NCBI GenBank assembly: GCA_947168885.1
Contig: CAMVNQ010000014.1
Location: 1-64,000, forward strand
Direction: 5' to 3'
Source of the DNA: an uncultured Clostridia bacterium
Lineage (GTDB): Bacteria; Bacillota; Clostridia; Oscillospirales; Ruminococcaceae
Length of the DNA: 64,000 bases
Below are positions 5,964 to 19,309 of this stretch, in pieces (position 1 is the stretch's first letter; each line of letters starts with the position of its first letter). The notes below the pieces were generated by a model. The model was not told the origin of the DNA and made no database searches. It saw nothing but the letters and a program-made list of their open reading frames with translations. Made by a program: the position numbers and the translations under genes.

Positions 5964-6006
5964 TATAGGCTATACCGCACAAAGAGCGTACGTTATAGCC
6001 TATAGG
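5964..6006. other. Inverted repeat abutting the MITE
   Basis: TATAGGCTATA (5964-5974) faces TATAGCCTATA (5994-6004). The left arm begins with the MITE target duplication, so the element appears to have inserted at the edge of an older hairpin. It may be an old terminator or a protein site; no function is shown. Confidence 0.5.
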
Positions 6007-6113
6007 TTTTCTCGGCGATGACTATACATTGGCAGGTTTTCATGCGGCACTGTTGTCATAATGCACAAATTCAACACAATTTTGGTAGTAAAATACAACA
6101 AACTTTTCAAAAA

Positions 6114-6157
6114 AAGACCGAAATGGTCTTCACGAACGACACTTTTTATGATATAAT
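6114..6157 (+). promoter_or_regulatory. Putative promoter and operator of the REC-XRE regulator
   Basis: TATAAT at 6152-6157 has a weaker -35 (TTCACG, 6129-6134) 17 bases upstream. A palindrome, AAGACC-gaaat-GGTCTT (6114-6130), overlaps the start of that -35 box and is well placed for repression or autoregulation. The leader from here to the gene at 6352 is about 190 bases long and contains another inverted repeat at 6291-6323. Confidence 0.5.
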
Positions 6158-6290
6158 AATCACATATAAATAATGGTTTTCTGTAATTTTCACCAAACTA
6201 CCGTAAGCTGCTTTCTGTCAGCGGAAATAACAGATATGTGTACTGTCCCCACAGAGACAGCGGTCAAAGCAGCTCCTTATGACAATTCTC

Positions 6291-6323
6291 TTATCATTAG
6301 CGTTCAGGTAACGGTAATGATAA
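6291..6323 (+). promoter_or_regulatory. Large inverted repeat in the leader of the regulator gene
   Basis: TTATCATTAGCGTT (6291-6304) faces AACGGTAATGATAA (6310-6323) across a 5-base loop, with 13 of 14 positions paired. It ends 18 bases before the CGGAGG ribosome site of the gene at 6352. It could be a regulator binding site or an RNA hairpin that affects translation. Confidence 0.5.
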
Positions 6324-6351
6324 CTTTCCCGATCTGATCCGGAGGTTAATT

Positions 6352-7095
6352 ATGAACATTCTTATACTTGACCACCACAAAGCCAGTCTCAGAGAACTGA
6401 TGCGCGAAATATCGGATATGTTTCCGGACGCTGAATGCGCGGGGGTTGAATCCGAAACAGATGCTCTCAGATACACAAGAAACAATAATGTAGATGTGGC
6501 ATTCCTTGATGTCAATGCACCCGATGATGACGGTATAAGAGCTGCCGAAAAAATGCAGAAGCGGAACCCGAACATCAATGTCATAATAATTACTGTCAAT
6601 CCGGAATTGGCGCAGGAAGCTTTCAGACTCTACGCAAGCGATTTCATTCTGAAGCCTGTCACCCGCGACGACCTGAAGCACGCATTCGATAATCTGCGGC
6701 ACCCTGTCGTTACGGCTTCCGACGAGAATATATCTCAGCATTACGCAGGTGCGGCAGTAATCGGCGAGCGCATAAAAAGATACCGCGAAAAAAACGGTAT
6801 GACAGCGAAAATGCTTGCGGAAAAGCTCGACGTTACGCTCAGAACTGTCAATCGCTGGGAACGCGGAGACCGTGTGCCGGATATAGCAAGGCTTACCCAG
6901 ATATCAAGAATACTTGGTATAAGCGTGAACGACCTTATGAACGAGGACACCTCGCAAGGTGACGTCGGAAACGAGGAAGACGGTCTGTACAGGCTGCCTC
7001 CGGAGATACTCGATATGCTTGCCGCCGGCAGGACCGAAGAGCTTCTGGAGCGCTACGGAAACAGCGAGCAGATTCACAACAGATACAGATCATAA
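6352..7095 (+). CDS. Response regulator with REC domain fused to an XRE-type helix-turn-helix
   Basis: 247 residues. Residues 1-120 are a receiver domain: D7 with the usual second acid replaced by His, phospho-acceptor D53 (AFLDVNAPD), T81 and K101 (ILKPV). Residues about 135-195 are an XRE/Cro-type helix-turn-helix (MTAKMLAEKL, RTVNRWERG, then ILGISVNDLM). REC joined to XRE is much rarer than REC with OmpR, NarL or LytTR output. No histidine kinase lies alongside. It opens the natural-product operon 105 bases before the radical SAM gene, so it is the probable cluster regulator. A strong CGGAGG site supports the start. The C-terminal 45 residues are acidic and unassigned. Confidence 0.88.
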   Translation: MNILILDHHKASLRELMREISDMFPDAECAGVESETDALRYTRNNNVDVAFLDVNAPDDDGIRAAEKMQKRNPNINVIIITVNPELAQEAFRLYASDFILKPVTRDDLKHAFDNLRHPVVTASDENISQHYAGAAVIGERIKRYREKNGMTAKMLAEKLDVTLRTVNRWERGDRVPDIARLTQISRILGISVNDLMNEDTSQGDVGNEEDGLYRLPPEILDMLAAGRTEELLERYGNSEQIHNRYRS

Positions 7096-7200
7096 TAACG
7101 GCTCGCCTGTTTTGAAACAATTAGTATCAGTGATAAAGACAGACAGCAGACGAGGTACTGTCTGTTCTGAACACAGAAAATCCTCGGAAATAATGATATT

Positions 7201-8694
7201 ATGTACTACAGACTGAAAGATGAATATGCGCTCCGCGGCTGGAAGGGACTTCCGTATGCGATCGGAAATTATCTGCTTCATGATACGAGCGGGAAAACCG
7301 GGTTCCTTCACTATTCAGCCAGCGGAAAACCGTACTTTTTCAACGAGGAACAGTTTGAAACTGTACGGAAGTTTGACGGAGTTACACCCATAGACGATAA
7401 CTCATTGTCACAACTACAGAAAGATCTTATACAAAACGCTCTGACCAGGGAGATCATCGACGTTTCCGAAACTCCCCTACCGGAGCTCACAGAGTTCCAG
7501 AAATACATATACTACCCCGCCATATACGTCCGTGAAGTTGTCTGGTCGATAACCGGAAAATGCAACTACCGCTGTCGGCACTGCATACTCTCAGCGCCGG
7601 ACGGGATACACCCCGAAGCCGGATTTGACGACTGCCGGCGGATAGCCGACCAGCTCGTCGAGTGCGGTATAAGGACGGTCACGCTTACCGGAGGAGAGCC
7701 CCTTGTAAGAAAGGATTTTCTGCGGGTTGCGGAAATGCTGACAGAGCGCGACATCGCGATCACTATGATAATGACCAACGGCAGGCTTATAACGCCGGAG
7801 ATACTCGACGGTCTTGAAAAGCTCGGACAGTTCCCTAAATTTCAGATAAGCTTTGACGGTATAGGACATCATGACAGTATGCGCGGGATAAAAGGCGCAG
7901 AAGAAGCGGCGCTTTCGGCTATGCGTCTGCTTGTGTCAAGACATTATGCGGTGACATCGTCGATGTGCATCGACCGTGAAAGCGCAGGCAGCATACGGGA
8001 CACGGTCAATCTCCTTGCGGAGATAGGGATAGACAGCGTCGGCGTGACGATACCGCAGAAGCTCGGCGCATGGGAAAAGGTCGGAAATGACCGCGTTTTA
8101 TCGTTTGATGAAAGCATGGAGATCTTTCTGGAGTATATCCCCCGTTTCTTTGAAGACGGTATGCCGCTGAGTGTGAATCTGGGCGGTGTATTCAACTGCA
8201 ACAAGGGCGGAACGGACTACAACATACCTTATGTGCGGAAATTTGATACCGATGAAGAACTCCAGAAGCATCTGATATGCACCTCCGCAAGATACATTTT
8301 ATATATTTCGGCAGAATGCCGGCTCATGCCCTGTCTTGGATACAGCACCACAGAATATGCGGACGAATTTCAGAATATACTTGAGATCCCGCTGAAAGAA
8401 GCTCTATCACGGTCACGGGCAAATGACATAATGATGTGCCGTATGAAAGAGTATTTCGCAAGGAACGAGAAGTGCCGCACCTGTGAAAAGCGTCTAAAAT
8501 GCGCGGGCGGGTGCAGAGTGAACGCTATGGTCGGCGGTAAGGATAATCTCAGCATAGACGAGGACACGTGCAGGTTCCACCTCGGCGGTTACGAAGACAG
8601 GATAAAAGAAACTGCACACAACGCCATTATACGTGCCGGATTAAAAGAAAACATTATCGGAATGATTCCAAGGGCAGTCCCCGGCGAAGGTTGA
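7201..8694 (+). CDS. Radical SAM/SPASM peptide-modifying enzyme (putative maturase of the Nif11-leader peptides)
   Basis: 497 residues. The radical SAM cluster motif is C121-NYR-C125-RH-C128, followed by TLTGGEPL (the GGE motif) and a TIM-barrel half. The C-terminal part has SPASM-type cysteines, including CRTCEKRLKCAGGC and a last Cys in DEDTC, to bind further iron-sulfur clusters. The first 100 residues look like a small leader-recognition or winged-helix domain, as in many RiPP maturases. Such enzymes make thioether, carbon-carbon or epimerised linkages in ribosomal peptides; which one here cannot be told. It lies directly upstream of seven precursor genes, which strongly suggests they are its substrates. 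The ribosome site before 7201 is weak (CTCGGAAAT). Confidence 0.88.
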   Translation: MYYRLKDEYALRGWKGLPYAIGNYLLHDTSGKTGFLHYSASGKPYFFNEEQFETVRKFDGVTPIDDNSLSQLQKDLIQNALTREIIDVSETPLPELTEFQKYIYYPAIYVREVVWSITGKCNYRCRHCILSAPDGIHPEAGFDDCRRIADQLVECGIRTVTLTGGEPLVRKDFLRVAEMLTERDIAITMIMTNGRLITPEILDGLEKLGQFPKFQISFDGIGHHDSMRGIKGAEEAALSAMRLLVSRHYAVTSSMCIDRESAGSIRDTVNLLAEIGIDSVGVTIPQKLGAWEKVGNDRVLSFDESMEIFLEYIPRFFEDGMPLSVNLGGVFNCNKGGTDYNIPYVRKFDTDEELQKHLICTSARYILYISAECRLMPCLGYSTTEYADEFQNILEIPLKEALSRSRANDIMMCRMKEYFARNEKCRTCEKRLKCAGGCRVNAMVGGKDNLSIDEDTCRFHLGGYEDRIKETAHNAIIRAGLKENIIGMIPRAVPGEG

Positions 8695-8736
8695 TACACT
8701 GTAATCATAAACGGTTTACATAAGGAGCAAAGCGCT

Positions 8737-9153
8737 ATGTCAATGAAAGACTTTATGCAATTACCCGAAGACGCAGCAACAAACGAGGAACTTGCTAAAA
8801 AGCTCTAAGAAGCGGACAGGCAAGCTCGCAAGACCGGCGACAAGGCAGTATTAATAAAGGCTGCCGCCGAACTCGGATATGAAGTAACCGAGCAGGACTT
8901 CCCCGACGACGATTTTGTAAAGCTTGACGAAAAGCAGCTCGACGATGTGGCGGGCGGATACCTCTGGTTCGACGAGGAAACCGAGGACGAACATGAGATA
9001 AGCTGTATACATTTGTGGTTTAAGGGCGTAGAATCTGCCAAATGCCCCAAAAGTAAATCCGGGAAACACCTTTTTGTGTTTAAAAACAAGAAGCTGTTTG
9101 AAGGTGGTTCATATTATAAATGTAAATATTGTGGAACAGAAGCATGGACATAA
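8737..9153 (+). pseudogene. Nif11-leader precursor 1, interrupted by a nonsense codon
   Basis: The gene starts at 8737 after AAGGAG and reads as a normal precursor except that codon 24 is TAA (8806-8808) where the sister genes have GAA. Past this codon the frame stays open to 9153 with a complete leader ending DDVAGG and a C-terminal part of 64 residues that keeps all four cysteines and the histidine of the family signature. A single base change (G to T) explains it. No translation restart with a good ribosome site is visible. Either the gene is freshly dead or the stop is read through. It is the first of seven tandem precursors, immediately after the maturase gene. Confidence 0.85.
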
Positions 9154-9197
9154 TTCCGCATATAATAAACGAATTCAAAATCAAGGAGGAAATCACT

Positions 9198-9611
9198 ATG
9201 TCAGTGAAAAATTTCAAACAACTTATGGAAGACGCAGCAACAAATGAGGAGCTCGCTAAAAAGCTCGAAGAGGCGGACAAGCAGGCTTGCAAGACCGGCG
9301 ATAAGGCGGCATTTATAAAGGCTGCCGCCGAACTCGGATATGAGGTGACCGAGCAGGATTTCCCAGGCAACGATCTTGAAAAACTCGACGATGAACAACT
9401 CGATGATGTGGCGGGCGGTTTATTCGGTTCACGCGGAGAAGACGAGGAAGGGTACGACTTAGGCTGCTTGTTCGATTGGTATAAGAGCGTTAAATCGTTA
9501 AAATGCAATAATAGCAGTTCCGGAAAACACCATTTTATTAATGAGCATGAAGAAAATGGTTTTAAAGTTTATGATTGCGAATACTGCGATATAAAAGCTT
9601 ATAGAAGATGA
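9198..9611 (+). CDS. Nif11-leader natural-product precursor 2
   Basis: 137 residues. Residues 1-74 are a Nif11-like leader: FKQLMEDAATNEELAKKL, then KAAAELGYEVTEQDFPG, ending LDDVAGG, the double-glycine cleavage site. The remaining 63 residues carry the family signature with Cys1-x12-Cys2 (C...KC), Cys2-x7-His (CNNSSSGKH) and a final CEYC. The start at 9198 follows AGGAGG by 7 bases; an in-frame ATG farther upstream lies in the previous gene. Spacing to both neighbouring precursors is about 44 bases, so all are co-transcribed. Export and cleavage are presumably done by the C39 transporter at 12569. Confidence 0.88.
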   Translation: MSVKNFKQLMEDAATNEELAKKLEEADKQACKTGDKAAFIKAAAELGYEVTEQDFPGNDLEKLDDEQLDDVAGGLFGSRGEDEEGYDLGCLFDWYKSVKSLKCNNSSSGKHHFINEHEENGFKVYDCEYCDIKAYRR

Positions 9612-9654
9612 TCCCGAAAACGTACACCAAATCCCGACACAAGGAGGAACATCT

Positions 9655-10083
9655 ATGGCAATGAAGAATTTCAAACAGTTAATGGAAGACACAGCAACAA
9701 ACAAGGAGCTTGCAGAAAAGATCGAAGAAGCGAATAAGCAGGCTCGCAAGACCGGCGACAAGGCATTATTTATAAAGACCGCAGCCGAACTCGGATATGA
9801 TGTGATCGAGCATGACTTTCCCGGCGATGATCTTGTAAAACTCGACGATGAACAGCTCGATGATGTGGCAGGAGGCTGGTTCGGCTTTACCGGGGATGCC
9901 GAAGACGGGAACGAATTAGGCTGCTTTAAGGATTATTATATTACCGTATGTCGTGAGAGATGCAATAACAGTCCGTCAGGAAAACACGGTTTTGTATTTG
10001 TGTGTTTTGAATATTTAAGTGATGATATTAAATATAATCGTTTAAAATGCAGGTACTGCGGCTTGAAAGCGTATAAATATTGA
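9655..10083 (+). CDS. Nif11-leader natural-product precursor 3
   Basis: 142 residues: leader of 74 ending LDDVAGG, then a 68-residue C-terminal part. The signature is kept (C-x12-C, CNNSPSGKH, CRYC), with two extra cysteines inside the variable spacers (TVCRE and FVCFE). The region between the histidine and the CxxC is 20 residues. AGGAGG lies 8 bases before the ATG. This leader diverges more than its sisters (DVIEHDF in place of EVTEQDF). Confidence 0.88.
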   Translation: MAMKNFKQLMEDTATNKELAEKIEEANKQARKTGDKALFIKTAAELGYDVIEHDFPGDDLVKLDDEQLDDVAGGWFGFTGDAEDGNELGCFKDYYITVCRERCNNSPSGKHGFVFVCFEYLSDDIKYNRLKCRYCGLKAYKY

Positions 10084-10127
10084 TTTCTCAAATCAGCTGA
10101 TGATACTGAAACAAGGAGGAATAAAAT

Positions 10128-10586
10128 ATGTCCATGAAAGACTTCAAGCATTTAATAGAAGACGCTGCAACCAACGAGGAGCTTGCCAAGAAGCTCGAAG
10201 AAGCGGACAAGGAGATGCGCAGAACCGGAGACAAGGCAGGTTTTATAAAGACTGCCGCCGAACTCGGATATGAAGTGACCGAGCAGGATTTCCCCGGCGA
10301 CGATCTTGTGAAGCTCGATGAAGAACAGCTCGATGATGTGGCGGGCGGTTGGTTCGGTCTAGGCACAGAAGCCGAGGATGAGCATGAGATAGGCTGCATA
10401 TATCTTTGGTACAAAGATGTTAACCCGGTATTATGTTCAGAAAGTTCGTCGGGAAAGCATGGTTTTGATTTCTGTTATGATGAAACGAAAAAAGTAGGCG
10501 AGCGTAGTATACCGACCTGTAAAATATTTAAGTGCAAGTACTGTGGGACAACAGCAAGAAGGACTGCAGAACTACTGTGGGACTAA
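10128..10586 (+). CDS. Nif11-leader natural-product precursor 4
   Basis: 152 residues, the longest of the set: leader of 74 ending LDDVAGG, then 78 residues. The signature cysteines and histidine are present (GC-x12-C, CSESSSGKH, CKYC) with a 24-residue spacer that includes two further cysteines (DFCYD and PTCK), and a tail of about 13 residues past the last CxxC. AAGGAGG precedes the start. The leader is almost identical to that of precursor 5, which suggests recent tandem duplication with faster change in the C-terminal part. Confidence 0.88.
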   Translation: MSMKDFKHLIEDAATNEELAKKLEEADKEMRRTGDKAGFIKTAAELGYEVTEQDFPGDDLVKLDEEQLDDVAGGWFGLGTEAEDEHEIGCIYLWYKDVNPVLCSESSSGKHGFDFCYDETKKVGERSIPTCKIFKCKYCGTTARRTAELLWD

Positions 10587-10653
10587 GTAAGACAACAGCA
10601 GAATTATATTTTCACAATCGCTGAACAAATCCGGACGCAAGGAGAACAAAACT

Positions 10654-11064
10654 ATGTCAACGAAAAATTACAAACAGTTAATGGAAGATGTAAGAACAAA
10701 CGAGGAGCTTGCCAAGAAGCTCGAAGAAGCGGACAAGGAGATGCGCAGAACCGGAGACAAGGCAGGTTTTATAAAGACTGCCGCCGAACTCGGCTATGAA
10801 GTGACCGAGCAGGACTTCTCCGGCGACGATCTTGTAAAACTCGACGATGAACAGCTCGATGATGTGGCGGGCGGTTGGTTCGGTCTAAGCACAGAGGCCG
10901 AGGACGAGCATGAAGTAGGCTGTATGATTCGGTGGTATAAGGGTGCCGCCAGTTCCTCATGCCCGAAAAGCAATTCCGGAAAACATAATTTCGTTTTCCA
11001 GAATGGAGAAGATGTCTTTAATAACTATATATGCAAATACTGTGGCATGGAAGCATTTTCGTGA
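10654..11064 (+). CDS. Nif11-leader natural-product precursor 5
   Basis: 136 residues: leader of 74, then 62 residues, the shortest intact C-terminal part. It shows the bare signature with no extra cysteine: VGC-x12-C, CPKSNSGKH, CKYC, ending soon after (GMEAFS). AAGGAG precedes the ATG. The first 40 codons are nearly identical to those of precursor 6. It is a useful minimal member of the family. Confidence 0.88.
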   Translation: MSTKNYKQLMEDVRTNEELAKKLEEADKEMRRTGDKAGFIKTAAELGYEVTEQDFSGDDLVKLDDEQLDDVAGGWFGLSTEAEDEHEVGCMIRWYKGAASSSCPKSNSGKHNFVFQNGEDVFNNYICKYCGMEAFS

Positions 11065-11109
11065 TATTTCACAAATCTGACAGATTCAGGCCTTAAGGAG
11101 GGAAACACT

Positions 11110-11559
11110 ATGTCAACGAAAAATTACAAACAGTTAATGGAAGATGTAAGAACAAACGAAGAGCTTGCCAAGGAGCTCGAAGAAGCGGACAAGGAGATGC
11201 GCAGAACCGGAGACAAGGCAGGTTTTATAAAGGCTGCCGCCAAACTCGGCTATGAAGTGACCGAGCAGGACTTCCCCGCCGACGATCTTGTGAAGCTGGA
11301 CGAAGAAGAACTCGACAATGTGGCAGGCGGATTTTTCTTCTTCGGCAACGAAGAAGAGAACGGACATGAGATGGGCTGCGGTTGCTGCTACTATGTACAG
11401 AGAGAAGATCTGCCGGTTCGGTGTCCGAACAACTCGTCAGGAAAGCATAAGTTTGAAGCCTCCGACGAAACGATACCGTGCCAGGGTGCTTTTTCTGTAT
11501 ACGGAAAAACAGTATTTGTCTGCAAATACTGTGAGGGCTGGACCTTTATAGCAAATTGA
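11110..11559 (+). CDS. Nif11-leader natural-product precursor 6
   Basis: 149 residues: leader of 74 (ending DNVAGG rather than DDVAGG), then 75 residues rich in cysteine: GCGCC near the front, CPNNSSGKH, an added IPCQG, and CKYC. Cys1 to Cys2 is 14 residues counted from the first Cys of GCGCC. The segment after GG starts with four phenylalanines. AAGGAGGG precedes the ATG. The extra cysteines make it the most divergent product in terms of possible cross-links. Confidence 0.87.
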   Translation: MSTKNYKQLMEDVRTNEELAKELEEADKEMRRTGDKAGFIKAAAKLGYEVTEQDFPADDLVKLDEEELDNVAGGFFFFGNEEENGHEMGCGCCYYVQREDLPVRCPNNSSGKHKFEASDETIPCQGAFSVYGKTVFVCKYCEGWTFIAN

Positions 11560-11605
11560 TTGTAAATTAAAACAATAAGATATGTCTGCATGGAGGATAG
11601 AAATT

Positions 11606-12052
11606 ATGTCAATGAAATATTTCAAGCAATTACAGGAAGACGCAGCAAACGATAAAGAGCTCGCAAAAAAACTCGAAGAAGCGGACAGAGAACTTCATAA
11701 ATCAGGTGATATGAATTCTTTTATAAAAGCAGCCGCGGAACTCGGATATGAAGTGACCGAGCAGGACATTTCCGCCGGAGATGATCTCGTAAAGCTTGAC
11801 GAAGAAGAACTTGACGATGTGGCAGGAGGAGTATTCGGTTTTGGAAACGATGCCCCGGACGGACATGAGATAGGCTGTATATTCAACTTCTCATACTATG
11901 TGAGTGCTTCAGCGTACTGTCCCCAAAACCCGGATAACGGTCATGAGTATGTTTTTATCGGACTTGATCCGCAAGACGAAGACTATGAACTTTACAAATG
12001 CAAACACTGCGGTTATGAAAGTTTCGAGTTCATCGGCGGCGCAGTAGAATGA
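11606..12052 (+). CDS. Nif11-leader natural-product precursor 7
   Basis: 148 residues: leader of 75 ending LDDVAGG, then 73 residues. The start at 11606 is chosen because GGAGG at 11592-11596 is correctly spaced and the protein then begins MSMKYFKQL like its sisters; the in-frame ATG at 11582 has no such site. SGKH is replaced by DNGH, but the histidine still lies 8 residues after Cys2 (CPQNPDNGH), which marks the His and not the Lys as the conserved feature. The closing motif is CKHC. It is the last precursor, 20 bases before the HlyD-like gene. Confidence 0.88.
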   Translation: MSMKYFKQLQEDAANDKELAKKLEEADRELHKSGDMNSFIKAAAELGYEVTEQDISAGDDLVKLDEEELDDVAGGVFGFGNDAPDGHEIGCIFNFSYYVSASAYCPQNPDNGHEYVFIGLDPQDEDYELYKCKHCGYESFEFIGGAVE

Positions 12053-12072
12053 TAATAATATGGTAAAATAAT

Positions 12073-12576
12073 ATGGAAAAATCAGTATTCAGGAAAAGCA
12101 GTATCGAGAGCCTTAACTCTCCCGAACAGCTCAACGACTACATAAAAGCGGCAAGCCCGGCTGTATGGATAATCCTTGCGGCAATAATCGCTCTGCTCTG
12201 CGCTGTATTCGCGTGGATATATTTCGGCTGCATCTATACGAGAGTCTCAGGAGTTGCCGTCAACGACAACGGCAAGCTCTCCTGCTATGTCCGCGCGGAG
12301 GATATGCTCAAAGCAGGAGATTCGGTCAAAGTCTCGGTCAACGGAACGGATTACACGACATCTGAGGTCTCCTCTGAACCGTTCAAGCTTGATCCCGCCG
12401 GAAATGTTGTAGATCAGATCATATCAACTATCGGCGGATTTACCGGCGATGACTGGCTCATAAAGCTCTCTCTCGCGGATAACACCGGTATCCCCGATCT
12501 TACCGTTGAGAGTGCGGTGGTAACGATCGAGGAGATAAGACCGTTGACATTCATCACGGGAGGAAGCAATGGATAA
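12073..12576 (+). CDS. Short HlyD-like NHLP-system secretion protein
   Basis: 167 residues. The N-terminus (FRKSSIESLNSPEQLNDYI) followed by one membrane segment at about 30-52 (WIILAAIIALLCAVFAWIYF) matches the start of the NHLP bacteriocin secretion protein (HlyD family). The family is usually near 400 residues with a long coiled coil; here only a lipoyl-like beta part of about 110 residues remains, and the frame is open and clean. It overlaps the next gene by 8 bases. A compact adaptor makes sense in a Gram-positive cell, where no outer membrane needs to be spanned. The ribosome site is poor, so translation may be coupled. Confidence 0.8.
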   Translation: MEKSVFRKSSIESLNSPEQLNDYIKAASPAVWIILAAIIALLCAVFAWIYFGCIYTRVSGVAVNDNGKLSCYVRAEDMLKAGDSVKVSVNGTDYTTSEVSSEPFKLDPAGNVVDQIISTIGGFTGDDWLIKLSLADNTGIPDLTVESAVVTIEEIRPLTFITGGSNG

Positions 12577-14749
12577 AAAGGCAGTAAGATCTCCCATTAC
12601 GAAGGGTGCGGCGAAAGTACCGGTCGTTATGCAGATGGAAGCCCTTGAATGCGGCGCGGCTTGTCTGACGATGATACTCGCTTATTACGGTAAATGGATA
12701 CCGCTTGAACAGGTGCGCTCGGACTGCGGCGTTTCCCGCGACGGCTCAAAAGCGAGCAAGATACTAAAAGCCGCAAGAAACTACGGTCTTGATGCCGACG
12801 GGTTTCGCGCCGAGAAGATAGAGACTGTCCGCAGCAAGGCCAAGTTCCCCTGCATCATACACTGGAACTATAACCATTTTGTTGTGCTTGACGGTATCAA
12901 GGGCAACAAGGCATATCTCAACGACCCTGCCAAAGGAAATGTCGTTGTGACGCTCGAAGAGCTCGACAAGTCTTTCACAGGCATCATTATGATGTTCGAG
13001 CCTACGGATAAATTCGAGCCGGGCGGCAAGCCCAAAGGCGTTATGGAATATGCGAAACAGCACCTTAAAGGAACGAGGACCGCAGTCATTTTCGTTGTGC
13101 TTACAACACTGATAACAACGCTTATCGGCATTATTAACCCGATATTCTCGCGGATATTCTTTGACCGGCTTCTTACCGGACAGAATCCCGACTGGCTGCT
13201 GCCGTTCATGATAGCGCTTATACTTATATCGTCGGTGCAGCTTATCAATTCATGGATAAACACCGTCAGCAACCTGAAGATAAACGGCAAGATGTCGGTT
13301 GTCGGCAGTATGACTTTCATGTGGCATATACTGCACCTGCCGATGGAGTTCTTCTCTCAGAGAATGGCAGGCGATGTACTGAGCCGAAAGGACTCTAACG
13401 CAAATATCTCACAGAGCATAGTAAACACAGTAGCGCCGCTGTTCCTGAACACCTGCCTTATGATATTCTACCTCGTGGTAATGCTCGGATACAGTATCCC
13501 TCTGACAATGGTGGGCATAGGTTCCATAGTTGTAAATATGCTTGTGTCGAACATAATATCAAAGAAACGGCTCAACATTTCCCGTTCGCAGATGCGCGAC
13601 AGCGGAAAGCTCGCGGGAACAACGGTCTCAGGCATTGAGATGATAGAAACGATAAAAGCCTGCGGAGCCGAGAACGGATTCTTTGAGAAGTGGTCCGGTT
13701 ATCAGGCAAGCGTCAACACAGGTTCTTACAACACAATAAAGACAGATCTTTATCTCGGTACTATTCCCGAGATAGTATCTTTGCTTACCAATATCGCTGT
13801 GCTTGTCTCGGGTGTGTTCCTTGTACTGAACGGACAGTTTTCGATAGGTATGGTAATGGCGTTCCAGTCATATCTCGGAGCTTTCACCGGTCCTGCACAT
13901 TCGATCATCGCGGCTCGCAGCACTATCCAGCAGATGAAAGCCGAAATGGAACGTGTCGAAGACGTAATGGGATACAATGAGGACGTTATCGAGAGTTCCG
14001 AGGAAGAAGAGGACGACGATTACGAAAAGCTGTCCGGCGAATTTGAGCTGAACAACATAACGTTCGGTTACTCAAAGCTTGACAAGCCGCTTATAACCGA
14101 TTTCAGCATAAAAGTCGAACAGGGACAGAGAATTGCTCTGGTAGGCTCCTCCGGCTGCGGCAAATCCACACTTTCAAAGCTTATCTCCGGTCTGTACAGA
14201 CCATGGAGCGGTGAGATCCTTTTCGACGGAAAGCCGATATCCGAGATAAACAAGAATGTATTCAGAAGCTCGGTTGCGGTTGTGGATCAGGATATTACGC
14301 TTTTTGAGGACACTATCGCCAGCAATATCAAGATGTTTGATTCCACGATAGAAGACTTTGAAATGATAATCGCTGCGCGTGACGCACAGATACATGACGA
14401 TATAATGCACCGTACAGGCGGTTATAAATACAGTCTGAAGGAAGGCGGCGGAGATCTTTCCGGCGGTCAGCGTCAGAGAATGGAAATAGCCCGTGTGCTT
14501 GCTCAGGACCCGAAGATTATCATTCTTGATGAAGCCACTTCCGCACTTGACGCAAAAACCGAGTATGATGTGGTAAATGCGATAAAAGAGCGCGGCATAA
14601 CCTGTGTAGTCGTTGCCCACAGGCTTTCGACAATACGCGACTGTGACGAGATACTTGTGCTTGACAAGGGAGTTGTGGTCGAGCGCGGAACGCATGACGA
14701 GCTGTTCGCCAAGGGCGGTTATTATACAAAGCTCGTAACTAATGAGTAA
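12569..14749 (+). CDS. NHLP-type peptidase-containing ABC exporter (C39 peptidase, membrane and ATPase domains)
   Basis: 726 residues. Residues about 15-135 are a C39 double-glycine peptidase with catalytic Cys28 (ALECGAACLTMI), His103 (NHFVVLD) and Asp119 (LNDP). Residues about 155-450 are a type I exporter membrane domain with about six segments. The ATPase domain follows: Walker A GSSGCGKST, signature LSGGQRQR, Walker B IIILDEATSALD. It should cut the Nif11 leaders after the VAGG and export the remainder. It overlaps the HlyD-like gene and is followed 9 bases later by a second ABC exporter, the usual pairing in NHLM clusters. Confidence 0.93.
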   Translation: MDKKAVRSPITKGAAKVPVVMQMEALECGAACLTMILAYYGKWIPLEQVRSDCGVSRDGSKASKILKAARNYGLDADGFRAEKIETVRSKAKFPCIIHWNYNHFVVLDGIKGNKAYLNDPAKGNVVVTLEELDKSFTGIIMMFEPTDKFEPGGKPKGVMEYAKQHLKGTRTAVIFVVLTTLITTLIGIINPIFSRIFFDRLLTGQNPDWLLPFMIALILISSVQLINSWINTVSNLKINGKMSVVGSMTFMWHILHLPMEFFSQRMAGDVLSRKDSNANISQSIVNTVAPLFLNTCLMIFYLVVMLGYSIPLTMVGIGSIVVNMLVSNIISKKRLNISRSQMRDSGKLAGTTVSGIEMIETIKACGAENGFFEKWSGYQASVNTGSYNTIKTDLYLGTIPEIVSLLTNIAVLVSGVFLVLNGQFSIGMVMAFQSYLGAFTGPAHSIIAARSTIQQMKAEMERVEDVMGYNEDVIESSEEEEDDDYEKLSGEFELNNITFGYSKLDKPLITDFSIKVEQGQRIALVGSSGCGKSTLSKLISGLYRPWSGEILFDGKPISEINKNVFRSSVAVVDQDITLFEDTIASNIKMFDSTIEDFEMIIAARDAQIHDDIMHRTGGYKYSLKEGGGDLSGGQRQRMEIARVLAQDPKIIILDEATSALDAKTEYDVVNAIKERGITCVVVAHRLSTIRDCDEILVLDKGVVVERGTHDELFAKGGYYTKLVTNE

Positions 14750-14758
14750 AGGGGGCGA

Positions 14759-16948
14759 ATGACATTGTCCTTTCTTGACAGTCAGATCAAGGAGCGTATC
14801 GAAAAAGAAGATGCCGAACTTGCCGAAGCACTTGCCGAGGCTGCTGATGCGGTAATGGGAAGGCGTGTCTCCGCAGCTATGAACGATGACAGAATAGCTG
14901 CCAGAAACGCCATTGAACGGATACTCAAATACTATCACGCAAAGCCGAGAGAACTGCCCGATGAAATATCGGACGTGAACGATCAGATAGACTATCAGAT
15001 GCGTCCGCACGGGATAATGACACGTCGTGTGAAGCTTGAAAAAGGCTGGCACAAGAACGCGATAGGCGCGATGATAGGCGTACGGAAGTCTGACAACGGA
15101 GTTGTTGCACTTCTCCCCCACGGCTTTACCGGCTACAGATACATAGACGAAAAGACCGAAAAGTCTGTAAAGATAACTTCAAAGACCGAAGCGCTTCTTG
15201 AGGATGAGGCTATAGTTTTCTACCGCCCCTTCCCTGTTAAAAAGATGAAGCTGTACGATCTCATAAAGTATATCTTCTCTACGATCCCCAAAACAGATGT
15301 AGCAATGCTGCTTATAATAACGGCAGCAGTAACGGGCATAGGCTTTTTCACTCCCATGATAAAAAACTTCATCTTCTCCGACGTTATCATGACAGGAAGC
15401 AATATGCTGCTTGTCGGTGCGGCTATCGCGCTTATAAGCATGACGCTGTGCTCCGTTTTTATAGGAATGCTTAACAGGCTGATGAATATGCGCATCAATA
15501 CAAGGCTTTCGCTGACCATACAGGCGGCTACTATGATGCGTGTGCTTTCACTTCCGGCAGATTTCTTCAAAAAATACAATTCCGGTGAAATGACAACAAG
15601 GTCGCAAAGTATGAGGTCGCTTTGCAATATGCTTATGAACACGATCTTCACTGCCTCACTTACATCGGTTTTCTCACTGGTATATATCGGACAGATCTTT
15701 GTTTATGCTCCCGCGCTGGTAGTACCGTCACTCCTGATAACAGCCGCGACACTTGGCTTTTCACTTATAACGACTTTTACGCAGATGAAAATAAGCCGTG
15801 AACAAATGAAACATTCTTCCAAGGAATACGGAATGTCCTATGCTATGATGCAGGGTGTTCAGAAGATAAAGCTTGCGGGGGCGGAAAAAAGGATTTTCGC
15901 CCGCTGGGGCAAGATTTATGCGGAGGGTGCGAGACTTACTTATGCTCCGCCTGCATTTCTCGTACTGAACCCTGTCATAAGTGCCGCTATCTCCCTTGCG
16001 GGAACGATCGTGATGTACTTCATGGCTGTGAGCAGCGGCGTTTCGGCAGCGGATTACATAGCATTCAATGCGGCTTACGGAATGGTATCCGGCGCATTCT
16101 CGGGTATATCGTCCATAGCAACGACCGCGGCGCGCATCAAGCCGGTGCTCGAAATGGTAGAGCCGATAATGAATGTCGAACCTGAGACCTCTGATGACAA
16201 GGAGATACTCACTTCGGTAAACGGTATGATCGAGCTTGACAGCGTTTCATTCAGATATGACGAATCCATGCCGCAGGTAATTGATGATCTGAACCTCAGG
16301 ATCCGCCCAGGACAGTATGTGGCGATAGTCGGAAAAACAGGCTGCGGGAAATCAACTCTTGTAAGACTTCTTCTGGGCTTTGAAAAGCCGCAGAAAGGAA
16401 GCATATTCTTCGACGGCAAGGATATAAACTCGGTTGATCTCAGATCACTCAGGAATAAAATTGGTGTTGTTCTTCAGAACGGGAAGCTGTTCAACGGAGA
16501 CATATACTCAAACATCGTCATCTCTGCCCCGACTCTCACAGTCGATGACGCATGGGAGGCGGCCGAGACCGCAGGATTAGCTGATGATATACGTGCTATG
16601 CCCATGGGTATGTTCACGATGATATCAGAAGGAAGCGGCGGTATTTCCGGCGGTCAGAAACAGCGTCTCATGATAGCACGCGCAGTAGCGCCGAAGCCGA
16701 GAATACTGATACTTGACGAAGCGACGAGCGCACTTGACAACATTACGCAGAAGAAAGTCTCCGAAGCTCTCGATAAGCTGAACTGTACCAGAATAGTAAT
16801 TGCGCACCGCCTTTCAACGATAAAGCAGTGCGACAGGATAATCGTTCTCGACAAGGGTAAGATCATCGAGGATGGCAAATATGATGAACTGATAGCAAAA
16901 AACGGATTTTTTGCTGAACTTGTAGAAAGGCAGAGAGTCAACGACTAA
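14759..16948 (+). CDS. NHLP-type ABC exporter without peptidase (second subunit)
   Basis: 729 residues. The first 160 residues are a soluble region with no Cys peptidase motif (FLDSQIKERIEKEDAEL start, then beta-rich), followed by about six membrane segments (about 170-440) and an ATPase with Walker A GKTGCGKST, signature ISGGQKQR and Walker B ILILDEATSALD. In known NHLM clusters this protein is thought to form a heterodimer with the peptidase-bearing exporter encoded just upstream. GGGGGCG supports the start at 14759. It is followed after 62 bases by the STAS gene. Confidence 0.9.
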   Translation: MTLSFLDSQIKERIEKEDAELAEALAEAADAVMGRRVSAAMNDDRIAARNAIERILKYYHAKPRELPDEISDVNDQIDYQMRPHGIMTRRVKLEKGWHKNAIGAMIGVRKSDNGVVALLPHGFTGYRYIDEKTEKSVKITSKTEALLEDEAIVFYRPFPVKKMKLYDLIKYIFSTIPKTDVAMLLIITAAVTGIGFFTPMIKNFIFSDVIMTGSNMLLVGAAIALISMTLCSVFIGMLNRLMNMRINTRLSLTIQAATMMRVLSLPADFFKKYNSGEMTTRSQSMRSLCNMLMNTIFTASLTSVFSLVYIGQIFVYAPALVVPSLLITAATLGFSLITTFTQMKISREQMKHSSKEYGMSYAMMQGVQKIKLAGAEKRIFARWGKIYAEGARLTYAPPAFLVLNPVISAAISLAGTIVMYFMAVSSGVSAADYIAFNAAYGMVSGAFSGISSIATTAARIKPVLEMVEPIMNVEPETSDDKEILTSVNGMIELDSVSFRYDESMPQVIDDLNLRIRPGQYVAIVGKTGCGKSTLVRLLLGFEKPQKGSIFFDGKDINSVDLRSLRNKIGVVLQNGKLFNGDIYSNIVISAPTLTVDDAWEAAETAGLADDIRAMPMGMFTMISEGSGGISGGQKQRLMIARAVAPKPRILILDEATSALDNITQKKVSEALDKLNCTRIVIAHRLSTIKQCDRIIVLDKGKIIEDGKYDELIAKNGFFAELVERQRVND

Positions 16949-17010
16949 CCGCTGTCAGCTAAAAGTTTCATTCGATTTCTGTAAACAATAAATAACCGGA
17001 GGATAATAAA

Positions 17011-17328
17011 ATGGCATCATTACTTAAGATCAAAAGCAAAGTAGAGGCGGGATCCGTCGTTGTTATTCCTGAGGGACGCATAGATGCAAACACGGCTTCC
17101 ATTCTCGACAAGGAGATATCGTCTGTCATAGATAACACCGATTCTATCGTTATAGACTTTGACAGTGTGGAGTATATCTCATCGGCAGGTCTTCGCGTGC
17201 TTCTCGGTACGAGCAAGGTAATGCTTAAAAAGAACGGCGACTTCAAGCTCATAAATGTTTCTGAAAATATCATGGATGTTTTTGCAGTGACCGGATTCAT
17301 AAACAAGCTCAACATCGTTAAAAAATAA
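17011..17328 (+). CDS. STAS-domain anti-sigma-factor antagonist
   Basis: 105 residues, a full-length single STAS domain. The core is VEYISSAGLRVLLGTSKVM, with the serine pair before AGLR at the position phosphorylated in SpoIIAA/RsbV proteins. It should be dephosphorylated by the SpoIIE-type phosphatase encoded next and phosphorylated by the small kinase two genes on. CGGAGG precedes the start. The short gap from the exporter gene suggests shared transcription with the natural-product operon. Confidence 0.93.
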   Translation: MASLLKIKSKVEAGSVVVIPEGRIDANTASILDKEISSVIDNTDSIVIDFDSVEYISSAGLRVLLGTSKVMLKKNGDFKLINVSENIMDVFAVTGFINKLNIVKK

Positions 17329-17340
17329 GGAAGAGTTATT

Positions 17341-18906
17341 ATGCAGATCTCTGATAATGTACGTTTTTTTCTGAGCCGTCAGAAATGGCTGGTCAACAGT
17401 TGTTTTTATTTCTGCCTTGTACTTACAATAGGTTCACTGATATTATGCAGATTAGACGGTACCGATAATCTCACTCAGGCAAACTGCATAAGTATCGGTG
17501 CGGATATGGTATCGCTGGCTATATGCACGACTCTGCTTTACAGCTGCAAGCAGGATAAGGATATGAACAGCGGTCATACGCAGATCTTCGTTTTCCTTAT
17601 AACTATGGAAGCGTGCGAGATATTTACCGATATGGCAAGCTGGCTTGTTTCCGGCTCCCCAAAGCTGATACTGTGGAATAAGATATTCTGTGTCGGCAAT
17701 TACGTCAGCGCAACACTGCTTGTATTCTTTTTCTGGCGTTATGTAGCAACAACGCTTGAACTTGAAGGCAAACTCGTCTCCGCACTCAATTTGCTGATGA
17801 ATCTGCTTATTATACCGGATATTATCAGCTCCTGCGTAAATTTCTTCTACCCGCTTCATTTCAGCATAGACGCGGAAGGTATATATCATCGCGAAAGTAT
17901 GTATATGCTGAGCCATGTGTACAATGTTGTAGCAGTAGCTGCCGGTGTTATCGGATTCATAAAATCCAAGTCAGCACCGCGCGTCAAGATAATTACAGCT
18001 TCATTTATACTTATCCCTATCTTTGCGCAGATCATGACAGGATATAACCCGGGGCTCACAACACAGTATTCGGCTATGCTTGTATCTATCGTACTAATCT
18101 ACGGTGTGCTCTTTGCGGAACGGGAAATGCGGCTCGTTGCGACAGAAAAGGAGCTTTCGATGGCTACAAGCATACAGAGCAGCGTTATGCCCAATATGTT
18201 CCCTGCTTTTCCGGAACGTGAGGAATTTGACATCTATGCGTCAATGGATCCGGCAAAAGAAGTCGGCGGTGATTTCTACGATTTCTTTTTCGTTGACAAT
18301 GACCACCTTGCAATGGTGATCGCCGATGTTTCCGGAAAGGGTATCCCGGCAGCATTGTTTATGATGTCCGCAAAGATAGTGATAAACGACAGGACAATGA
18401 TGGGCGGTACACCCGCAGAGATACTGAAATACGCAAACAACCGTATCTGTGACAAGAACGAAGAAGGGCTTTTCGTAACGGTTTGGCTCGGCATTCTTGA
18501 CCTGAGAACCGGAAAGCTTATCTGTGCGAATGCGGGTCATGAATTCCCGGCATTATGCCGTAACGGAAAGTTTGAGCTTTTCCAGGACGAACACGGATTC
18601 GTCGTTGGCGGATTTGAAGACGAGGAATATACGGATTACGAGATACAGCTGTCTCCCGGGGATAAGATATTCGTATATACCGACGGTGTGCCGGAAGCGA
18701 CCGATGCGAAGGGCGAGATGTTCAACACAGACAGAATGACGGAATCGCTTAATAAACACAGGGATTTGTCTCCGGAACATCTTCTGAAAGCTGTTAAGGA
18801 AGATGTCAAGGAGTTCGTTAAAGATGCACCTCAGTTTGATGATCTCACCATGCTTACGCTGACATTCAAAGGCAGCAATGCAGGAAAGGACGGATTCAAT
18901 GAATAA
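17341..18906 (+). CDS. Membrane SpoIIE-family (PP2C) serine phosphatase
   Basis: 521 residues. The N-terminal half has about seven membrane segments (about 18-265), a 7TM-like sensor module, then a short linker with ATEKELSMATSIQSSVMP, and a PP2C/SpoIIE domain from about 290. Metal-site motifs are KEVGGDFYDFF, IADVSGKGIPAAL and a late QFDDLTML. It probably dephosphorylates the STAS protein encoded 12 bases upstream in response to a membrane signal. It overlaps the following kinase gene. The homologue at 19494-21224 has the same catalytic core but a different sensor. Confidence 0.92.
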   Translation: MQISDNVRFFLSRQKWLVNSCFYFCLVLTIGSLILCRLDGTDNLTQANCISIGADMVSLAICTTLLYSCKQDKDMNSGHTQIFVFLITMEACEIFTDMASWLVSGSPKLILWNKIFCVGNYVSATLLVFFFWRYVATTLELEGKLVSALNLLMNLLIIPDIISSCVNFFYPLHFSIDAEGIYHRESMYMLSHVYNVVAVAAGVIGFIKSKSAPRVKIITASFILIPIFAQIMTGYNPGLTTQYSAMLVSIVLIYGVLFAEREMRLVATEKELSMATSIQSSVMPNMFPAFPEREEFDIYASMDPAKEVGGDFYDFFFVDNDHLAMVIADVSGKGIPAALFMMSAKIVINDRTMMGGTPAEILKYANNRICDKNEEGLFVTVWLGILDLRTGKLICANAGHEFPALCRNGKFELFQDEHGFVVGGFEDEEYTDYEIQLSPGDKIFVYTDGVPEATDAKGEMFNTDRMTESLNKHRDLSPEHLLKAVKEDVKEFVKDAPQFDDLTMLTLTFKGSNAGKDGFNE

Positions 18907-19309
18907 ACTTGTTGTTCCGGCTGAAATGGATAAACTTGATGATGTCATAGCTTTCGTTGACACTTCTCTCGACGGCCATGAATATTCCGACAAGACACTG
19001 ATGGAGATAGAGATAGCGATCGAAGAGATCTTTGTTAATATTGCAAGTTATGCCTACACGCCCGGAACGGGAGAAGTGTCAGTCGAGACGGATATCAGCG
19101 GCAAACCGGAAACACTTACCGCCAGATTTATTGACAACGGTATAAAATATGATCCCCTTGAAAAAGACGATCCAAACACCAGACTTTCCGTCGAGGACAC
19201 TCCGATAGGCGGTCTCGGTATCTTTATGACCAAAGCGAGCATGGATGATGTAATTTACGAATATAAAGAGAATAAAAACATTCTTACCATAACGAAAGTA
19301 CTGTGTTAA
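18899..19309 (+). CDS. RsbW/SpoIIAB-like serine kinase (anti-sigma factor)
   Basis: 136 residues. It is a HATPase_c_2-type domain with the N box IEEIFVNIASYAY and the glycine-rich DTPIGGLGIFM. It overlaps the end of the phosphatase gene by 8 bases, with a purine-rich AGGAAAGGACGG site inside it, which fixes the start at 18899. With the STAS and SpoIIE genes it completes a partner-switching set. No sigma-factor gene lies beside it, so its target is unknown; it may control the operon or act on other STAS proteins in this region. Confidence 0.9.
   Translation: MNKLVVPAEMDKLDDVIAFVDTSLDGHEYSDKTLMEIEIAIEEIFVNIASYAYTPGTGEVSVETDISGKPETLTARFIDNGIKYDPLEKDDPNTRLSVEDTPIGGLGIFMTKASMDDVIYEYKENKNILTITKVLC

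Follow-up and report, generated by a model that had tools for sequence, protein, structure and literature searches.

A precursor array in a Clostridia bacterium that may encode exported mini-proteins with a modified head and a metal-folded tail

We analysed a stretch of 64,000 nucleotides (the window; all positions are counted within it) from an uncultured Clostridia bacterium, which is genome G000 in our set and probably an inhabitant of the animal gut. The window holds an array of seven peptide precursor genes, placed head to tail on the + strand and flanked by a radical S-adenosylmethionine (SAM)/SPASM gene (7201-8694) and an export operon. The operon consists of a short HlyD-like protein, an NHLM ABC transporter with a C39 peptidase, and a second ABC subunit. 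The seven cores share four cysteines and one histidine. We estimate a probability of roughly 0.6 that this locus yields exported two-part mini-proteins, each with an enzyme-modified head and a metal-folded ribbon tail. The features are listed below; for the precursors, the five numbers after "codons" are the codon starts of Cys1, Cys2, His, Cys3 and Cys4.

7201..8694, + strand: radical SAM/SPASM peptide maturase, 497 amino acids; PF04055, E = 2.1e-20; CxxxCxxC and SPASM-type cysteines
8737..9153, + strand: precursor copy 1, stop codon in leader; core 8959-9150; codons 9004, 9043, 9067, 9121, 9130
9198..9611, + strand: precursor copy 2, Nif11 leader; core 9420-9608; codons 9465, 9504, 9528, 9576, 9585; TIGR03798, PF07862
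9655..10083, + strand: precursor copy 3; core 9877-10080; codons 9922, 9961, 9985, 10048, 10057; PF07862
10128..10586, + strand: precursor copy 4; core 10350-10583; codons 10395, 10434, 10458, 10533, 10542; PF07862
10654..11064, + strand: precursor copy 5; core 10876-11061 (modelled with AlphaFold); codons 10921, 10960, 10984, 11032, 11041; PF07862
11110..11559, + strand: precursor copy 6; core 11332-11556; codons 11377, 11422, 11446, 11521, 11530; PF07862, TIGR03798 just under cut-off
11606..12052, + strand: precursor copy 7 (whole precursor modelled with AlphaFold); core 11831-12049; codons 11876, 11918, 11942, 11999, 12008; PF07862
12073..12576, + strand: short HlyD-like secretion protein, 167 amino acids; TIGR03794, residues 14-62 only
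12569..14749, + strand: NHLM ABC transporter with N-terminal C39 peptidase (ABC1); TIGR03796, PF03412 E = 5e-36
14759..16948, + strand: second NHLM ABC transporter subunit; TIGR03797; no peptidase domain found
17011..19309, + strand: STAS protein, SpoIIE-type phosphatase and RsbW-type kinase (partner-switching regulators); PF01740, PF07228, PF13581

The precursor array and its neighbouring genes

The initial annotation had described the C-terminal parts of the precursors by the pattern C-x(12-14)-C-x7-H-x(15-24)-C-x2-C. Our analysis confirmed that this pattern fits all seven tails after the double glycine. The loop between Cys1 and Cys2 has 12, 12, 12, 12, 12, 14 and 13 residues in copies 1-7, and the loop between His and Cys3 has 17, 15, 20, 24, 15, 24 and 18. 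The histidine stands 8 residues after Cys2 in every copy, and the four cysteines and the histidine, described as invariant, are the sole five invariant columns of 84 in the alignment of the seven cores. Mean amino acid identity is 77% for the leaders and 37% for the cores (range 21-50%), which are 62-78 residues long. When all seven cores were shuffled for 20,000 rounds, one match occurred in 28 rounds and two matches in none. A chance origin of the motif is thus excluded.

A further regularity was absent from the earlier description. In every copy Cys1 is the 16th residue after Gly-Gly, and the residue three positions before it is Glu (six copies) or Asp (one copy). Unlike the fixed Cys1, Cys3 and Cys4 shift in position with loop length. 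Additional cysteines are found in copies 3, 4 and 6, with totals of 6, 6 and 7.

A Shine-Dalgarno-like sequence (AAGGAG or GGAGG) lies 5' of each precursor, and A-G-G closes the leader in all seven copies. An in-frame TAA at codon 24 of the copy 1 leader (8737-8808) makes this copy a probable pseudogene, lost recently, or an assembly error, and leaves six intact precursors; the copy 1 core retains all five residues. The Nif11-type leader domain PF07862 scored above its cut-off of 23.8 bits in all six intact precursors. Only copies 2 and 6 were scored by TIGR03798 (37.3 and 32.1 bits, respectively, against a cut-off of 32.3).

The window enzyme resembles general radical SAM/SPASM peptide maturases in carrying CxxxCxxC and C-terminal cysteines that would belong to a SPASM domain. 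The SPASM-region pattern CxxC-x5-C-x3-C was kept in all nine aligned enzyme rows, the window row included, and the match to SPASM family PF13186 was weak and under cut-off (E = 0.011). Among the 25 of 70 families listed, no curated NCBIfam cut-off was reached; the best score was 84.7 bits for TIGR04103 (nif11-class maturase 3; cut-off 725). The radical SAM enzyme is the sole modification enzyme among the genes named at the locus. No LanM or lanthionine synthetase was found among the genes named by hidden Markov models at 6352-19309, which is a part of the window.

ABC1 passed the cut-off of TIGR03796 (924.6 bits, cut-off 853.3), and the second ABC subunit scored 708.3 bits for TIGR03797 (cut-off 709.4). 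ABC1 carries ECGAAC, NHFVV and NDP stretches, which we take to be the C39 active site. Its relatives in the PDB over nearly the whole length include the bacteriocin transporters 4ry2/8vp3, as well as ComA. The C39 domain is expected to cut after Gly-Gly and the transporter to export the product. The HlyD-like protein scored 38.6 bits for TIGR03794 (cut-off 156.2) over residues 14-62 only; it is a short form.

The nearest clusters, L031 and L032, have the gene order of the window, with enzymes 80-81% and ABC1 90-93% identical. In both, the HlyD-like gene also adjoins ABC1 (77-80% identity) and the order of the STAS, SpoIIE-type and RsbW-type genes is retained (78-89% identity). Genes of these three kinds accompany L031, L032, L042, L149 and L163, as if such clusters were under partner-switch control.

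Head and ribbon as separate parts of the core

To describe the core, we refer to D/E-x2-C, which ends in Cys1, as the head, and to Cys2-His-Cys3-Cys4 as the CHCC ribbon. We pooled the Nif11 open reading frames (ORFs) of 20 loci (from ten same-genus genomes and the second cluster of the window genome) with 39 homologues. The pooled set comprised 146 ORFs or proteins, of which 6 had no readable core, and merging of duplicates gave 127 unique cores. The head motif was found in 113 of them and the CHCC ribbon in 35; 32 had both, and 81 had the head without the CHCC ribbon. The residue three positions before the first cysteine was E in 100 and D in 4 of 114 cores.

The head without the ribbon occurs at seven loci that have a radical SAM gene 34-39% identical to that of the window (L037, L039, L042-L044, L048 and L050). 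Other arrays, L034, L038, L040 and L041 included, had no related radical SAM gene within the locus stretch examined. The ribbon without the head occurs in the short precursors L031:204-500 and L032:1145-1447, directly upstream of the radical SAM gene, in which C-x6-H or C-x7-H is followed by CxxC. Profile comparison of these ribbon-only tails with the window ribbons gave a probability of 30% and a single-pair E of 5.6e-4, aligned from two residues before Cys2, which is suggestive only. Homologue P0034 pairs the head with CxxC-x16-CxxC, which replaces the CHCC set.

Because head-only cores, head-less ribbon precursors and P0034 separate the two modules, Cys1 is most likely part of the target of the enzyme, and Cys2-His-Cys3-Cys4 would be the metal site. 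The initial annotation had placed all five residues in one set of metal ligands, and our analysis gives this grouping no support. Cys1 sits in a separate head at a fixed distance from the cleavage site, also in precursors that lack such a ribbon, and it falls in the less confident part of the structure models (predicted local distance difference test, pLDDT, below 50 in the copy 7 precursor; block mean 62 in the copy 5 core).

Structure prediction of the residues after the double glycine, proposed earlier as a check, gave a ribbon-like strand order for the CHCC part. The copy 5 core alone was modelled with AlphaFold from a 28-row alignment (model m0120ce4de4fd; mean pLDDT 76.8, predicted template modelling score 0.64). 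The pLDDT values per ten-residue block were 57, 62, 80, 88, 82 and 90, and residues 21-60 averaged 80-90. Strands are predicted at 39-45, 48-53 and 59-61. Of the proposed ligands, C29 and H37 lie before strand 39-45, C53 ends strand 48-53, and C56 lies before strand 59-61. This matches the order of a zinc ribbon, namely knuckle, hairpin, knuckle, strand. Sequence and predicted strands together fit a zinc ribbon, with two knuckles, four Cys/His ligands, and a hairpin plus third strand. The model of the whole copy 7 precursor (mf199bae8e0a5) has the same strand order (115-120, 127-132, 138-142) at an overall confidence of 62.4; residues 67-88 and 90-96, which are most of the head, are under pLDDT 50.

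No zinc-ribbon family scored above cut-off in Pfam and PDB sequence searches with six precursors, four cores and the core profile, and neither model gave a significant fold match to solved structures with Foldseek or VIA-align. A few zinc proteins appeared in the top non-significant rows (VdcD, ELOF1, Dof and XPA in Foldseek; NrdR in VIA-align). These rows were set aside and not used as evidence because SH3 domains appear alongside them. When 396 family genomes were searched with the core profile, two weak matches turned up outside G000; neither had a Nif11-like leader in the three forward frames, taken in the direction of the match, and both were judged to be chance.

The five-residue pattern was also compared among homologues. 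In an alignment of 18 cores (the seven of the window and 11 chosen homologues, which are metagenome relatives), the same five columns are the sole invariants, and Glu occupies the position three before Cys1 in at least 90%. Some of the 39 homologues depart from the pattern. For example, Cys3 is missing in P0033, P0026 ends early, and the tails of P0028, P0029 and P0035-P0039 are of other kinds. P0022 joins the P0023 leader to the P0024 core: leaders and cores have been reshuffled.

The same-genus loci L034, L037-L044 and L050 have Nif11 precursor arrays with up to 23 members (L041) and cores like APDGHEMGC..YH..WC..YYC. Ketosynthase-like, short-chain dehydrogenase and GNAT genes lie beside some of these arrays (by Pfam on L034, L039, L040 and L042), which suggests that the same pathway makes or attaches an acyl chain. 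The window genome has a second NHLM cluster (L045; contig C6, 8570-14371). It holds a single intact precursor of the APDGHEMGC type, and the 20 kb examined there showed no radical SAM homologue. A ribbon-type precursor was seen at L033:7874-8344 (G048), with no radical SAM homologue of the window type within the 16 kb examined.

These results bear on an ordinary ranthipeptide- or sactipeptide-like product, in which most or all four cysteines would become thioethers and no metal would be bound. The radical SAM/SPASM gene lies directly upstream of the array, thioether links are frequent in cysteine-rich cores next to such enzymes, and QhpD and PapB are able to bond Cys with Asp or Glu (excerpted text of PMC11002830). 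However, thioethers need neither an invariant histidine at +8 nor a closing CxxC. The CHCC set is absent from 81 of the 113 head-bearing pooled cores, so that the candidate target with the strongest conservation lies in the head, and the AlphaFold model of the core predicts that the CHCC part folds. We consider such a thioether-linked, metal-free product unlikely.

The initial annotation had contrasted a zinc-ribbon-like or iron-sulfur mini-protein with a short cross-linked peptide. The ribbon-like character of Cys2-His-Cys3-Cys4 finds support in the core model, in the CxxC...CxxC of P0034 and in the ribbon or finger cores of some related clusters, and the proposed mini-protein would stand to this extent; the inclusion of Cys1 does not. 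The either/or contrast is probably false, and the likeliest product is both at once, with an enzyme-modified head and a metal-folded tail.

Zinc-like cores in related radical SAM clusters

We scanned contigs with a profile of nine enzymes, which gave at least 80 loci, and analysed the first 21 (L051-L071). Zinc-like cores were found in three of them (L051, L055 and L059). L055 comes from a rumen Clostridiales genome and has NHLM transporters and an enzyme 39% identical to that of the window. It contains 14 double-glycine ORFs, nine of which read as C2H2, C2HC or CxxC...CxxC cores; the best Pfam match was zf-C2H2_4 (E = 1.4e-5, 25.8 bits against a cut-off of 27). The L059 core has a head and CPLCG...CHACK. 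The double-glycine precursor at L055:11884-13164 has both head and ribbon and continues into a fused DUF7005 domain that contains a HELTH stretch.

In a survey of the L055 family, the enzyme was found at E <= 1e-70 in 8 of 300 genomes, that of L055 included. Zinc-like cores were present in two of the seven other loci, L148 and L149 (CPSGGIH...CKKC in L149), and none were seen in L150-L154. At E <= 1e-80 the enzyme had matches in 13 of 394 genomes of the window's order and 5 of 391 of its class, with G000 and G035 in both counts. Six of the 16 other order and class neighbourhoods (L158-L173) had zinc-like cores (L162-L164, L166, L167 and L169). In the stretch examined near these six, both ABC subunits were found only at L169; L164 and L167 had a piece of ABC1, L162 and L163 weak ABC matches (33-35%), and L166 none. 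In L164, L166 and L167 the multi-cysteine cores come in large sets; in many of these cores Cys immediately follows Gly-Gly, and they may have more than one metal site.

The chance of such patterns was estimated by comparing C4, CHCC or C2H2/C2HC spacing with 500 shuffles, and every locus fetched in each survey was counted. The ORFs were double-glycine ORFs found by regular expression with a core of at least 25 residues on both strands, spurious frames included, and the window was represented by 6001-14000 only. Zinc-like cores numbered 7 of 7 in the window (shuffled mean 0.37, maximum 4), 6 of 7 in L031 and L032 (0.26, 3), 14 of 34 in L055 and all seven loci of its family (1.00, 4), 30 of 50 in the order and class survey L158-L173 (6.73, 13), and 11 of 43 in the contig scan (1.61, 7), 9 of these 11 coming from L055. 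Since many of the 30 cores in the order and class survey belong to related arrays (L164, L166), they do not count as independent.

The other 18 same-genus loci showed no zinc-like excess (9 of 96; shuffled mean 4.25, maximum 11). We had considered whether zinc-like patterns are common to any cysteine-rich double-glycine core; because these loci are not above shuffles, recurrence is claimed for some clusters only.

We built an enzyme tree of 43 rows, omitting L152 (identical to L064), L165 (long branch), and L057 and L066 (no usable enzyme frame); L153 and L161 are apparently one contig under two locus names. The 13 zinc-core clusters need 5 label changes on this tree, 4 of them forced by well-supported branches, and 6 if L051, whose single such core lies 7 kb from the enzyme, is labelled zinc as well. 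The 13 clusters form three groups: the window with L031 and L032; L055, L059, L148 and L149; and L162-L169, the last with non-zinc rows interspersed. The pattern may be explained by fewer gains plus several losses. We lean slightly towards the view that exported, leader-cut zinc-ribbon or zinc-finger mini-proteins recur as a so far undescribed type of product in radical SAM/NHLM clusters of gut Clostridia, spread over three enzyme-tree groups, in which metal stapling would take the place of thioethers and the enzyme would edit a separate head.

Proposed product and relation to known systems

We propose that each precursor begins with a Nif11-type leader and its double-glycine cut site, followed by a short head and then by the ribbon tail. 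The radical SAM/SPASM enzyme (7201-8694) would be guided by the leader, and its most likely target is D/E-x2-C in the head (Cys1), which might receive, for example, a Cys-Glu/Asp thioether; other radical SAM chemistry is possible. Such a thioether is plausible because QhpD and PapB form bonds of this kind (excerpted text of PMC11002830). The tail, Cys2-x7-His...Cys3-x2-Cys4, would fold independently into a small zinc ribbon, with a single metal ion, most likely zinc, in a structural role. Cleavage after Gly-Gly by the C39 domain of the NHLM transporter would be followed by export of the peptide. The metal site could act as a scaffold or staple, with loops and surfaces free to vary between copies. 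The form of the array, a constant leader with divergent cores, may fit an interbacterial weapon or a signal, which we put forward with low confidence; bacterial competition as the activity is a guess.

It could be argued that the four conserved cysteines form two disulfides after export and that the histidine has another role, since the product is probably exported and disulfides are common in secreted mini-proteins. The extra cysteines of copies 3, 4 and 6 do not accord with this, the last total being odd, and a CxxC at the end of a hairpin opposite a Cys/His pair is the metal pattern of a ribbon. Several L055 cores have C2H2 or C2HC sites with two or three cysteines only, and the named relatives appear to be mostly gut anaerobes. 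We regard the disulfide explanation as rather improbable. Iron in place of zinc, as in an exported rubredoxin-like electron carrier, would share the CxxC knuckles of rubredoxins, and L055:7066-7284 weakly matches the rubredoxin-like family PF21349 (E = 0.0013, under cut-off). However, rubredoxin iron sites use four cysteines and the window site has one histidine; some relatives use two, which is usual for zinc, and none of the genes identified at 6352-19309 stood out as a redox partner. An iron carrier is very unlikely in our view. Least probable of all are intracellular zinc proteins with a Nif11 leader that serves only for enzyme binding: zinc ribbons are usually intracellular and C39 cleavage is here a prediction, but A-G-G ends all seven leaders, the C39/NHLM gene starts about 520 to 3,420 bases downstream in the same direction, and the precursor-transporter order is retained in L031 and L032.

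If the two-part mini-protein with a metal-folded tail is correct, bacteria deploy metal-folded mini-proteins as secreted, diversified natural products, and mining for ribosomally synthesized and post-translationally modified peptides that is aimed at short cross-linked cores overlooks them. The cores are small (62-78 residues), so folding, metal binding and activity are directly testable, and the D/E-x2-C head is a precise prediction for an uncharacterised radical SAM subfamily. By titles and abstract openings, we found no description of zinc-binding cores for peptides of the Nif11/NHLP or radical SAM kind in the open-access literature, a search that does not establish their absence from print.

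Haft, Basu and Mitchell (2010, PMC2887384) have described the N11P (TIGR03798)/NHLP export system. According to the excerpted text, it shares with the window the long Nif11 leader, the double glycine, paralogous arrays, and adjacent TIGR03796 and TIGR03797 transporters. NHLP C-terminal regions are rich in heterocyclizable residues there, and some N11P clusters are lanthionine-forming. The window differs in its long core (62-78 residues), its fixed C/H metal-site pattern and a radical SAM enzyme as the sole named modifier. The NHLP/Nif11 clusters of anaerobes such as Eggerthella lenta (PMC4289311) are also similar: the E. lenta leader has 71 residues and the cores 50-59, and a radical SAM enzyme is the suspected modifier in several clusters. 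In contrast to our proposal, the excerpted text puts forward no metal site or ribbon, and the word "zinc" is absent from the main text.

The ranthipeptides (freyrasin/PapB, thermocellin/CteB) and QhpD, as presented in the excerpted text of PMC11002830, have a radical SAM/SPASM enzyme, and their Cys and Asp/Glu partners would suit the D/E-x2-C head. However, the window peptides have one candidate cross-link site, not a series of rings, plus a putative metal-site tail.

Zinc ribbons and C2H2/C2HC fingers resemble the predicted tail in their two knuckles and beta hairpin, and CPxCG...CxxCG and C2H2 patterns occur in some related clusters. The window cores differ from them in belonging to a double-glycine-leader peptide beside a peptide exporter, and not to a domain of a larger intracellular protein.

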